Shown here: piece by piece, positions 41,512 through 44,897 of the stretch
How the letters are laid out: every line of letters starts with the position of its first letter
Position numbering within the stretch: the first letter of the stretch is position 1
The notes under the pieces: generated by a model
Seen by the model: the letters and a program-made list of their open reading frames with translations, nothing else
Databases searched by the model: none
What the model was told of the DNA's origin: nothing
Assembly: GCF_937863595.1 (NCBI RefSeq)
Contig: NZ_CALMGQ010000087.1
Span: 2,501 to 66,500, forward strand
Direction: 5' to 3'
Source: an uncultured Cytophaga sp.
GTDB lineage: Bacteria; Bacteroidota; Bacteroidia; Cytophagales; Cytophagaceae
DNA length: 64,000 nucleotides
Program-made: the position numbers and the translations under genes

Positions 41512-41552
41512 AAAGAAAGCCTCTTTGTTGTTTTAACAGAGAGGCTTTCTTT
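41512..41552 (+). terminator. Terminator after secDF
   Basis: AAAGAAAGCCTCT (41512-41524) pairs with AGAGGCTTTCTTT (41540-41552), followed by more T residues. It isolates secDF from the sigma factor operon. Confidence 0.85.
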
Positions 41553-41621
41553 TTTTGAAATTATTTTTCTTAGCCTGTAACTTTTAATTCATTCGCTTCG
41601 TCTCACGTAAAATTCCAAAGA

Positions 41622-42095
41622 TTGAAAGAAAAGGAGTTTAATATAGTAGTAGAACAAACCTCACAAAGAATATATAGGTTTGTATTTAAAAATTTAAAAA
41701 GCGACGCTGATACAAAAGACGTGGTACAGGAAACCTATATCAAATTTTGGACAAAGAAAGATGACCTCGAAAAAGAGAAGGTTACAGCTTGGTTGTTTAC
41801 GACAGCATACCGAACTATGATTGACTTTATTCGCAAACGTAAACCTCAATTTAATATTGATGAAGAAGTTGTTGCTGAATATACGGACACGCGAGTTGAC
41901 ACAACCAACATGGTGCATCAGTATTTGGATCTGCTTTCGCCCGTTTTTAAATCTACAATTTTACTGAGAGATATAGAAGGTTATAACTACGCGGAAATAG
42001 GTAACATCTTAAACTTATCTGAAAGTCAAGTGAAGGTGTATTTATTCAGAGCACGAAAAAAATTAAAATCCATCATTGAATTGAACGAGATATAA
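41622..42095 (+). CDS. ECF-type RNA polymerase sigma factor
   Basis: A 157-residue sigma-70 family protein with only regions 2 and 4. Region 2 includes RIYRFVFKNLKSDADTKDVV and ETYIKFWTKKDDL; region 4 includes LSPVFKSTILLRDIEGYNYA and the helix-turn-helix IGNILNLSESQVKVYLFRARKK. It begins with TTG at 41622: the frame has no ATG or GTG between the upstream stop at 41571 and that codon. Two bases separate it from the anti-sigma-like gene, and the two barrel genes follow, all co-directional. It probably drives its own operon and possibly envelope or secretion genes elsewhere; its target promoters are unknown. Confidence 0.9.
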   Translation: MKEKEFNIVVEQTSQRIYRFVFKNLKSDADTKDVVQETYIKFWTKKDDLEKEKVTAWLFTTAYRTMIDFIRKRKPQFNIDEEVVAEYTDTRVDTTNMVHQYLDLLSPVFKSTILLRDIEGYNYAEIGNILNLSESQVKVYLFRARKKLKSIIELNEI

Positions 42096-42097
42096 TC

Positions 42098-42748
42098 ATG
42101 AACATAACTACGGATAATATAGAAGAGTGGTGTTTTCGATATCTTGAAAAAGATCTTGATTCAACTGAGCAAAAGTTTTTTGAGAGCGAATTAACTTCTA
42201 ATAAAGCCTTGCAAAAAGAATATGCCTTATGGAAAAAAACGAAGATTACAGATTTAGTTATTGATTTTCCAACACAATTAAACACTCCGCTATTACGATA
42301 TAATATGCAATTGTTGTGGTTGTGCATTGAATTATCCATCGTTGTTGGCTTGTCCTTGTTAAGTGTATGCTTTCCTTCAACAACACCTATTGTAAAAGAT
42401 GTACTGCCAACAAAAACGTATATCACAATCGATACCATCAAAAAGGATATTCAACAAGAGTATGTTACTTATAGCAAACATGAAGTAGTCAAAGAGGCCA
42501 ACGTATCTACATCAGAAACGCCACTTAATGCCCCCATTATTCAACCTTATATTGATTCAACAAACAGTGTAACTGCATTTCCTAAATCTGAAGAGCCGAT
42601 TTTGCCAACGACAAATCCAACATCTATTGACAGCATAAAAACACCAAAGGATTCAACAGTGAAAATTGCTACTCCCAAAAAAATAAAACCGACCAATAGA
42701 AAACGCAGAACAGGATCAAGCTTAATCCCCATAAACAATGATTTATAA
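42098..42748 (+). CDS. Membrane anti-sigma-like protein
   Basis: A 216-residue protein. Residues 1-60 are a small helical acidic domain (NIEEWCFRYLEKDLDSTEQK) like the cytoplasmic sigma-binding part of Bacteroidota anti-sigma proteins. A membrane segment lies near 70-90 (LLWLCIELSIVVGLSLLSV). The remaining ~120 residues are outside the cytoplasm and rich in Thr, Pro, Ser and Lys. No zinc motif (HxxxCxxC) is present. The call as anti-sigma rests on topology and position 2 nt after an ECF sigma gene. Its end overlaps the first porP/sprF-like gene by 11 bp. Confidence 0.65.
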   Translation: MNITTDNIEEWCFRYLEKDLDSTEQKFFESELTSNKALQKEYALWKKTKITDLVIDFPTQLNTPLLRYNMQLLWLCIELSIVVGLSLLSVCFPSTTPIVKDVLPTKTYITIDTIKKDIQQEYVTYSKHEVVKEANVSTSETPLNAPIIQPYIDSTNSVTAFPKSEEPILPTTNPTSIDSIKTPKDSTVKIATPKKIKPTNRKRRTGSSLIPINNDL

Positions 42749-43790
42749 ATTTTTATCCTTCCTATTTTTCTGTGGTGTTTGCATTTCTACCTTCGGGCAG
42801 GAATTGCAATCGCCGCAAATCAGTCAAAATGCAATCTTTGCTAATCCAGGATTGGCGGGATCTAAGGGACAGACGCGAATTTGCGCTTCAGCGGGTGTGA
42901 TAACTAAGCGTATTGGCGAACGTTCTTTCCAAAGTCCTTTCCACTCAAATACGCATTCCAATCTTACTCTTAGTGCAGATGGCGCCATTTTAAAGAAAAG
43001 TATTGGAATTGGTGGCTATATTACTAATACTAGCTATACAGTATTAAGTGAAGCAAATTCTACTCACTCCTTTTCAACTTCAAGCTTATTGAAAGCAAAA
43101 AATTTATCTCAATATAATTCACTCGGATTGGGATTTATAGTAGCACCAAAATTTTATTTAAACTCTACTGTCGATCCTGAGAAAAGCCATTGTCTTTCTC
43201 CAAGTATCAGTATTGGCATGAGAGAATCTAGCTATAAGATATCTTCTGATTCGAATCTTAGAAATTATCAAGGACAACTCAATGATGTCTCACATTCCGA
43301 AAAAAACTCTTATGTTACATTTGATCATATTTCTGCTGGTTTATTATACAATACAACCACGGGGTATTATGGCTTAAAAATAAATTATTTAAAAAGTGCA
43401 TTGTATAGACATGATATTAGTTTTGGCTTTGTAGGTGCACATTCGTTTTATAATAAAAAAATAACCAATCCAAAATTTTCATTTAACCCACAAATATATG
43501 TGGCCTTTTACTTAAAAACTTTTCAAAAAAATGTTGACCTACTACAAGCACCTTATTTTGTTAATCAAGGTGCTACATGCAATATTAATTTAGATTTTAA
43601 ATATAGAAAGTTTGTTTTTGGGGGCTTTTTGTATGCCACAAAATATATAGAAACTTCAATGGGCATAACAGCTGGCATTCAATATAATTCTACAAGAATT
43701 GTATTGAATTATATGGCTGCTCTTTTAAATACACCGGGCGGAATTTATTTGTCTGTTAATTTTTTATTAAAAAACAAAAAAGACGCTTAA
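42738..43790 (+). CDS. PorP/SprF-family outer membrane barrel, copy 1
   Basis: A 350-residue protein with signal peptide ending at CISTFGQ. The mature start ELQSPQISQNAIFANPGLAG is the family hallmark (the usual pattern is Q..PQFSQYM.N....NPAYAG). The rest alternates hydrophobic beta strands and loops, as in PorV/PorP-type barrels. PorP anchors the T9SS machinery, and SprF is needed for SprB adhesin secretion; many genomes carry orphan copies next to particular cargo. No cargo is adjacent here; the partners are a sigma and anti-sigma-like pair. A 92-bp block is identical to copy 2. Confidence 0.82.
   Translation: MIYKFLSFLFFCGVCISTFGQELQSPQISQNAIFANPGLAGSKGQTRICASAGVITKRIGERSFQSPFHSNTHSNLTLSADGAILKKSIGIGGYITNTSYTVLSEANSTHSFSTSSLLKAKNLSQYNSLGLGFIVAPKFYLNSTVDPEKSHCLSPSISIGMRESSYKISSDSNLRNYQGQLNDVSHSEKNSYVTFDHISAGLLYNTTTGYYGLKINYLKSALYRHDISFGFVGAHSFYNKKITNPKFSFNPQIYVAFYLKTFQKNVDLLQAPYFVNQGATCNINLDFKYRKFVFGGFLYATKYIETSMGITAGIQYNSTRIVLNYMAALLNTPGGIYLSVNFLLKNKKDA
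42778..42869 (+). repeat. 92-bp exact direct repeat, copy A
   Basis: Identical base for base to 43852-43943, offset 1,074 bp. It covers the end of the signal peptide and first ~25 mature residues of porP/sprF-like copy 1. The flanks differ at once on both sides. Confidence 0.95.
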
Positions 43791-43811
43791 ACACCTTTTT
43801 TAGCTATTACT

Positions 43812-44897
43812 ATGACTTATAAAAATTCAATAATTATCTTATTTTGTTTTATTTGCATTTCTACCTTCGGGCAGGAATTGCAATCGCCGCAAATCAGTCA
43901 AAATGCAATCTTTGCTAATCCAGGATTGGCGGGATCTAAGGGAGAAACTCGAATTAGTACGGCATTGTTGGCATATAAGTGGAAGCGTCAATATTCTGAT
44001 AATGCTGACAATAATGGCTATAATTACACATCCATTTCAAAGAGAAATGTATATAATGGTTTAATTAGCATAGATGGGCTCATTCTAAAAAACAAACTTG
44101 GTATTGCAGGATATTTAAAAAATGAATCATTGAATTGTACAGACATTTACAATTCTTATCAATACAATTCGTTAACCAATGCGCGTCACATTACCTATCA
44201 ATACACTAATATAAATATGGGGTTCATGATAGCTCCTAAATTTCAAATAACTGCACGCAATAATAAGAAGCAAGACCATGTTTTATCACCCGCGTTTTCA
44301 ATTGGCTTTAAAGAGACTCAATCTGAATACACAGGGCCAACTATATACACCTACCACCATCAAGACAGCACAGTAAGTGGCAAACAAAAAAGCTCCTTTG
44401 GGCTTGACTACGTGTCCGCAAGCTTATTGTATAGTTCGCCCAATAGTTATACTGGCATAAAGTTAAATTTTGGAAATTATGCAAATAACTTTATTCTTTA
44501 TGATGTTAGTTTTCTGTATGCTAAAACATATTCAAATAAAAAAATAGCAGAACCCAAATTCTCATTTACCCATCAATTTCAATTCACGTTCCCTACATTT
44601 GCATTACATGAAAATGCAGTATACTATAGCTATTATGACAGAATAAACAGAGACGTTTTAACGAATTATTTCAACGCCAATCTAGACTTCAGGTACGATA
44701 AATTTATTTTAGGAACCTTCGCTGGTTTCAATGGATATTATGGTGTTTATGGTGGATTCACAGGTGGGATTCAACTAGAAAAAATGAAAATAATTGTAAA
44801 TTATTCCCCTAGATTTTCTCCAAAAGATCATGGCAGTAGTGGACTCTTCCTTTCAGCCAATTTTTATTTAAAAGGAAAGAAAGAGCGATATAAATAA
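43812..44897 (+). CDS. PorP/SprF-family outer membrane barrel, copy 2
   Basis: A 361-residue paralogue of the preceding gene, 21 nt downstream. The signal-peptide end and the mature N-terminus are identical to copy 1 at the DNA level, while the rest has clearly diverged: the strands share spacing and phrases such as FSIGFKE/ISIGMRE and NKKIAEPKFSF/NKKITNPKFSF but few long matches. It is rich in Tyr and Asn in the loops. Same proposed role in the outer membrane. It is the last gene before the convergent radical SAM gene, with 5 nt between stops. Confidence 0.82.
   Translation: MTYKNSIIILFCFICISTFGQELQSPQISQNAIFANPGLAGSKGETRISTALLAYKWKRQYSDNADNNGYNYTSISKRNVYNGLISIDGLILKNKLGIAGYLKNESLNCTDIYNSYQYNSLTNARHITYQYTNINMGFMIAPKFQITARNNKKQDHVLSPAFSIGFKETQSEYTGPTIYTYHHQDSTVSGKQKSSFGLDYVSASLLYSSPNSYTGIKLNFGNYANNFILYDVSFLYAKTYSNKKIAEPKFSFTHQFQFTFPTFALHENAVYYSYYDRINRDVLTNYFNANLDFRYDKFILGTFAGFNGYYGVYGGFTGGIQLEKMKIIVNYSPRFSPKDHGSSGLFLSANFYLKGKKERYK
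43852..43943 (+). repeat. 92-bp exact direct repeat, copy B
   Basis: Second copy of the block at 42778-42869, in the same place within porP/sprF-like copy 2. Confidence 0.95.

Follow-up and report, generated by a model that had tools for sequence, protein, structure and literature searches.

A probable split relative of the Dma and Reo systems: a Cytophaga operon of an ECF sigma factor, a tethered anti-sigma factor and two PorP/SprF-like barrels as a possible cell-surface signalling unit

Introduction

Can an outer membrane barrel control an ECF sigma factor when the barrel and the anti-sigma factor are separate proteins? The question is raised by a four-gene operon in a 64,000-nucleotide stretch of DNA from an uncultured Cytophaga sp., called the window in the following. 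Single-chain versions of such a device are known from gut Bacteroides. Dma is described as consisting of an N-terminal anti-sigma domain, a transmembrane helix, a long disordered tether and a C-terminal beta-barrel, and its gene lies beside that of an ECF21 sigma factor (PMC13088901). Reo also extends to the cell surface and is presumed to be a sensor of outer-membrane stress (PMC13114119; PMC9308784), and the sigma gene of a Phocaeicola Reo-type system is itself induced under envelope stress (PMC9308784). Neither the split form nor fusions of an anti-sigma factor to a PorP/SprF barrel were found described in the literature searched, which left most subscription papers outside its reach.

Results

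The four genes form a conserved unit

All four genes are on the + strand: the first two lie 2 nt apart, the second and third overlap by 11 bp, and 21 nt separate the last two, exactly as the original prediction had stated. The first gene (41622..42095) starts with TTG and encodes an ECF sigma factor of 157 residues with the Pfam domains Sigma70_r2 (2e-13) and Sigma70_r4_2 (3e-12). It is followed by the gene of the 216-residue anti-sigma factor (42098..42748) and by those of two outer membrane barrels of the PorP/SprF-like type, barrel 1 with 350 residues (42738..43790) and barrel 2 with 361 residues (43812..44897). Upstream of the operon lies secDF, which is closed on the + strand by a terminator-like hairpin at 41512..41552 (19-bp stem, -25.7 kcal/mol, followed by T-rich DNA). 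The downstream neighbour is a convergent radical-SAM gene. With these two neighbours there is no cargo gene beside the barrels, and on this point, too, the prediction was right.

The sigma factor is 73% identical to that of Cytophaga aurantiaca DSM 3654, the nearest named locus, where the gene likewise starts with TTG. A search of relatives with the sigma sequence gave 14 loci including the window, all with sigma factor, anti-sigma factor and barrel in this order and in widely differing genomic surroundings. Nine further split loci, among them those of Rhodocytophaga and Cesiribacter, came from an order-wide anti-sigma profile search and from named loci. After likely duplicates were taken out, 23 distinct split loci remained, all retrieved by the sigma or anti-sigma sequence and never by the barrel. 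At 22 of them the gene that follows the anti-sigma gene encodes a PorP-like barrel; the sole exception, L243, has no barrel within 1.5 kb. The number of barrels per locus is one or two, and L240 is truncated by its contig at the sigma end. The order on whose conservation the prediction had made itself depend is therefore kept in relatives. The operon is accessory, since a genome of the same genus (G002) has no match to the anti-sigma factor or the barrels.

The best named NCBIfam match of the sigma factor is NF058625 (GFO_1088/PG0214). Membership was rejected because the score is below the cut-off and 24 loci of this family have a small anti-sigma factor and other neighbours. A PorP-like barrel was found at none of these 24 loci. 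Since the gene order is kept at the split loci and such a barrel is missing from the NF058625 loci, the arrangement is more than chance, and we conclude that the four genes form a real unit.

A promoter motif precedes the sigma gene

A predicted ECF promoter is located at 41576..41605 (+ strand), with the -35 element TGTAAC at 41576-41581 and the -10 element GTCTCA at 41600-41605, which predicts a very short leader ahead of the TTG start. The motif TGTAAC-N17/18-GTC, with N18 in the window, is found directly 5' of the sigma gene at most loci; in the Flavobacteriales the -10 part is often GTT instead of GTC. A match at 8-9 of the 9 positions is present at 70 of 79 related sigma loci, compared with 12 among 540 other genes on these sequences. 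In its own genome, a draft of 3.97 Mb, the strict motif occurs in promoter position only at the sigma operon. The motif has the shape of an ECF promoter, and because of its enrichment upstream of the sigma genes and this single promoter-positioned match, autoregulation of the sigma factor is likely on sequence grounds.

A larger regulon was also considered and dropped, as the remaining strict matches in the same genome fall inside open reading frames. When the -10 part was loosened to GTY, two extra intergenic matches appeared, both beside unrelated genes. In the C. aurantiaca-like genome G001, the motif lies 25 nt 5' of a gene for a lipoprotein-like protein of 352 residues (L096, G001:C2:235574), which is a candidate second target. 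In G007, TGTAACTTTAATACTTTGTTATCAGTC is found in five identical copies and is probably part of a repeated element.

A subset of loci has a lipoprotein-like gene directly 5' of the sigma gene (L055:6355-7395, L064-L066, L244:2630-3580, L248:30-917 and L249:2471-3361). At L055 the promoter motif precedes this gene rather than the sigma gene. The three upstream lipoprotein-like proteins that were tested gave no Pfam match.

The anti-sigma protein has a predicted anti-sigma fold and a long periplasmic tether

The 216-residue protein has no Pfam match, and its assignment was approached with an AlphaFold2 model (m203caa9c605d, built from 42 sequences). Residues 1-60 (42098..42277) are modelled as an N-terminal domain with helices at 8-16, 22-34 and 36-48 (pLDDT >90). 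When ten solved chains were aligned to the model, the four top entries were all anti-sigma domains: RslA with SigL (Z 5.7), RsiW with SigW (5.5) and two MucA-AlgU complexes (4.7 and 4.6). Such Z values are modest, as with any small helical domain, yet the outcome that all four are anti-sigma factors is telling for a predicted fold. A sequence search with the barrel and anti-sigma profiles led to no convincing solved structure. The domain is followed by a single transmembrane helix at residues 69-91 (42302..42370), indicated by the model and by hydropathy. The proposal of a membrane anti-sigma factor thus gains from the predicted fold and from this one helix.

Beyond residue 92 the model is without structure (pLDDT ~55). 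This Thr/Pro-rich part, residues 92-216 (42371..42745), has 19 Thr and 14 Pro among its 125 residues and could be long enough to span the periplasm. Its end, SLIPINNDL (42719..42745), stands out in the family alignment and is proposed as a docking peptide. The mean column identity is 0.40 in the 25 columns of the tail end, 0.16 in the linker and 0.35 in the N-terminal domain. The ends differ by split family, with KGNxPYVVPxDxxxF in many, PVNxNF-like ends in others and SLIPINNDL in the window. In many family members a free hydrophobic residue stands at the end (NF, DL).

The barrels are divergent and PorP/SprF-like

Barrel 1, which has a signal peptide, reached 25.2 bits against PF11751 (PorP_SprF), just above the cut-off of 22.3, and 31 bits against TIGR03519, where the cut-off is 90.55. 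Its placement in the PorP/SprF family by sequence is therefore weak. The AlphaFold2 model of barrel 1 has 14 strands (pTM 0.77), and its PDB matches include FadL and PorV; PorP-like proteins are 14-strand barrels of the FadL family (PMC9143113). Barrel 2 alone gave no Pfam or NCBIfam match. It is 37% identical to barrel 1, and its closest counterpart is the one barrel encoded in the C. aurantiaca operon (L054, 56%). A joint profile of the barrels matches canonical PorP/SprF proteins, and the barrel of the split relative L182 is a clear PorP_SprF protein (157 bits).

The two barrel genes share 92 identical nucleotides (42778-42869 and 43852-43943) that encode the end of the signal peptide and an NPGLAG motif. 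Given the protein identity of 37%, this points to either recent gene conversion or strong constraint.

In most relatives the anti-sigma factor is fused to a barrel

At 65 of the 80 nearest sigma relatives (GTDB species) the sigma gene is followed by a long, fused-type anti-sigma gene of 480-650 codons. The fused proteins have the same N-terminal domain and transmembrane helix as the split form, followed by a long linker that leads to a barrel at the C-terminus. This barrel matches Pfam PorP_SprF in 51 of the 64 complete proteins (in L144 at residues 281-551, E 5e-30) and OMP_b-brl_2 in one. The Flavobacteriales fusions (L117, L118, L144, L147 and others) share with the window a homologous sigma factor, the N-terminal domain, the barrel family and the promoter motif. 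They differ in that anti-sigma factor and barrel are joined in one chain, often with a separate PorP/SprF-like gene next to it; such a gene is complete at 43 of the 65 loci.

Four fused loci have a further gene in the order sigma factor, fused anti-sigma factor, PorP gene and a gene for a type B T9SS cargo-like protein. The latter matches TIGR04131 above the cut-off in L152 and just below it in L130, L134 and L156. At other loci the separate barrel is of the OMP_b-brl_2 type in place of the PorP type (L119, L173, L197, L199, L201 and L204). As split, PorP_SprF-fused and OMP_b-brl_2 loci all have it, the lasting association at the level of sequence is that of a sigma factor, a tethered anti-sigma factor and an outer membrane barrel, while the barrel family and the covalent joining vary.

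The distant relatives L197, L199, L204 and L207 have a separate downstream barrel (OMP_b-brl_2 in L197, L199 and L204) and a longer anti-sigma protein with the transmembrane helix near residue 140. In some of them the N-domain profile matches at two separate places, which suggests a doubled anti-sigma domain.

In the sigma tree, three changes between split and fused are required by parsimony. The support is weak and compatible with one origin, and we argue for neither fusion nor fission as the direction of change. A search of 395 genomes with the fused profile, in which three candidates per genome were scored, returned mostly ordinary PorP/SprF proteins and informs only on relatives of the C-terminal half of the fusion.

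Discussion

The scheme that accounts for these observations, and which we hold to be probable, is that the operon signals from the cell surface as a self-contained unit and is a split relative of Dma/Reo, with the end of the tail docked on a barrel. It builds on the observed gene order and its conservation, the promoter motif and the domain layout, on the predicted folds and on the fusions in relatives. The ECF sigma factor would transcribe its own operon and would be held by the cytoplasmic N-terminal domain of the anti-sigma factor. The single transmembrane helix would continue into a flexible tether of ~125 residues across the periplasm, and the conserved end would dock on the co-encoded barrel or barrels, replacing the covalent bond of the fused proteins. 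A change of the barrel, such as binding of a ligand or cargo, mis-assembly or loss in envelope stress, could then alter the tether and free the sigma factor. More sigma factor, anti-sigma factor and barrels would follow, and the output would mainly be the operon itself, as a feedback on barrel supply. If the unit behaves like Reo, a disturbed outer membrane may release the sigma factor; if it behaves like PorP/SprF, the signal may be a surface protein that occupies the barrel. Binding of the sigma factor, docking of the tail on a barrel, the signal and the direction of the response are the inferred parts of this scheme.

The anti-sigma::barrel fusions in most relatives are, as sequences, direct evidence of the two parts working together. 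They fall short of proving contact of the split tail with the barrel; in the split form, docking probably stands in for the covalent link. Against docking, the tail ends are unlike between the split families (PYVVP..., PVNxNF, IPINNDL), and L243 has no barrel within 1.5 kb.

The window shares with Dma/Reo of Bacteroides the adjoining cognate ECF sigma gene, 2 nt upstream of the anti-sigma gene, the N-terminal anti-sigma domain (a predicted fold with Z 4.6-5.7) and the one transmembrane helix at 69-91 followed by 125 unstructured residues. It differs in that the chain ends at residue 216 and the barrel is encoded by a separate, overlapping gene; there are two such separate barrels of the PorP/SprF type, both with signal peptides, and the conserved end of the tether is free. 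The likeness to Das/Dma and Reo is one of described layout. The window is thus filed as a split variant and not as a Dma, and may work like one.

The original prediction had taken FecI-FecR-FecA as its reference. Sigma factor, membrane anti-sigma factor and outer membrane barrel are clustered there as well and the signal comes from the surface, as is proposed here, but the four proteins of the operon contain no TonB-dependent receptor or FecR domain by Pfam. Dma/Das and Reo/EcfO, with anti-sigma factor and barrel in one chain, are closer. The idea that the barrels take the place of the TonB receptor itself has gained ground through homology and the natural anti-sigma::PorP/SprF fusions.

The barrels could instead be an output of the sigma factor, with the anti-sigma factor responding to a signal in the periplasm or inner membrane and making no contact with the barrels through its tail. 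They are separate proteins with their own signal peptides in the window, and lying within the operon they are probably transcribed by the sigma factor, so that co-regulation alone would explain the linkage. A mere output, however, needs no fusion, and most relatives have the anti-sigma factor and a PorP/SprF barrel in one chain; the tail end is also conserved although the tail is disordered. We regard this explanation as unlikely. We are more doubtful still of a reader other than a barrel. PDZ domains bind free hydrophobic C-terminal ends, and membrane anti-sigma factors usually release their sigma factor through regulated proteolysis. A PDZ-type periplasmic protease or chaperone might therefore read the conserved tail end, often F or L, in a DegS-RseA-like manner, and free ends such as NF and DL do occur in many family members. 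The fused relatives have the barrel at this position and lack such an end, no protease gene is linked to the operon, and the protease that controls RseA recognises the ends of misfolded porins rather than that of the anti-sigma factor. Reading of the tail by such a protein thus seems improbable.

The docking scheme leaves room for a role of the T9SS. Type B CTD proteins are bound at the surface by PorP-like barrels (PMC9143113), and if the barrels of the operon still dock such proteins, the tail might report the presence or absence of cargo. The four fused relatives with a TIGR04131-matching gene after sigma factor, fused anti-sigma factor and PorP gene speak for this; the divergence of the window's barrels, their lack of a neighbouring cargo gene and the absence of adjacent cargo at most related loci speak against it, and cargo sensing is quite unlikely in our estimate. 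A wider version, that a PorP/SprF docking barrel has turned into an ECF outer-membrane sensor and the docked tail reads the binding of a protein at the surface, perhaps a type B cargo of the T9SS, is a tentative and rather unlikely reading. Porphyromonas, too, has an ECF sigma factor that is linked to T9SS-type proteins (SigP with PorX/PorY); unlike here, a two-component system drives SigP and there is no operon with anti-sigma factor and barrels (PMC4800418). The T9SS link that the prediction had drawn for the operon is accordingly weak: the divergent barrels without cargo tell against it, and the cargo-like gene in the four fused relatives is what stands in its favour.

Anti-sigma factors of the Dma/Reo kind have reportedly been described only recently. 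The docking scheme would bring this type of signalling to the Cytophagales, the Flavobacteriales and the family of PorP/SprF barrels. In the split version barrel, tether and anti-sigma factor are separate, so that each can be deleted or swapped singly and control of a sigma factor by a barrel becomes directly testable. Through such a scheme, surface docking proteins might also act on transcription. If the reading of the barrel as a sensor is true, the cell would tune its transcription to the occupants of its surface docks.
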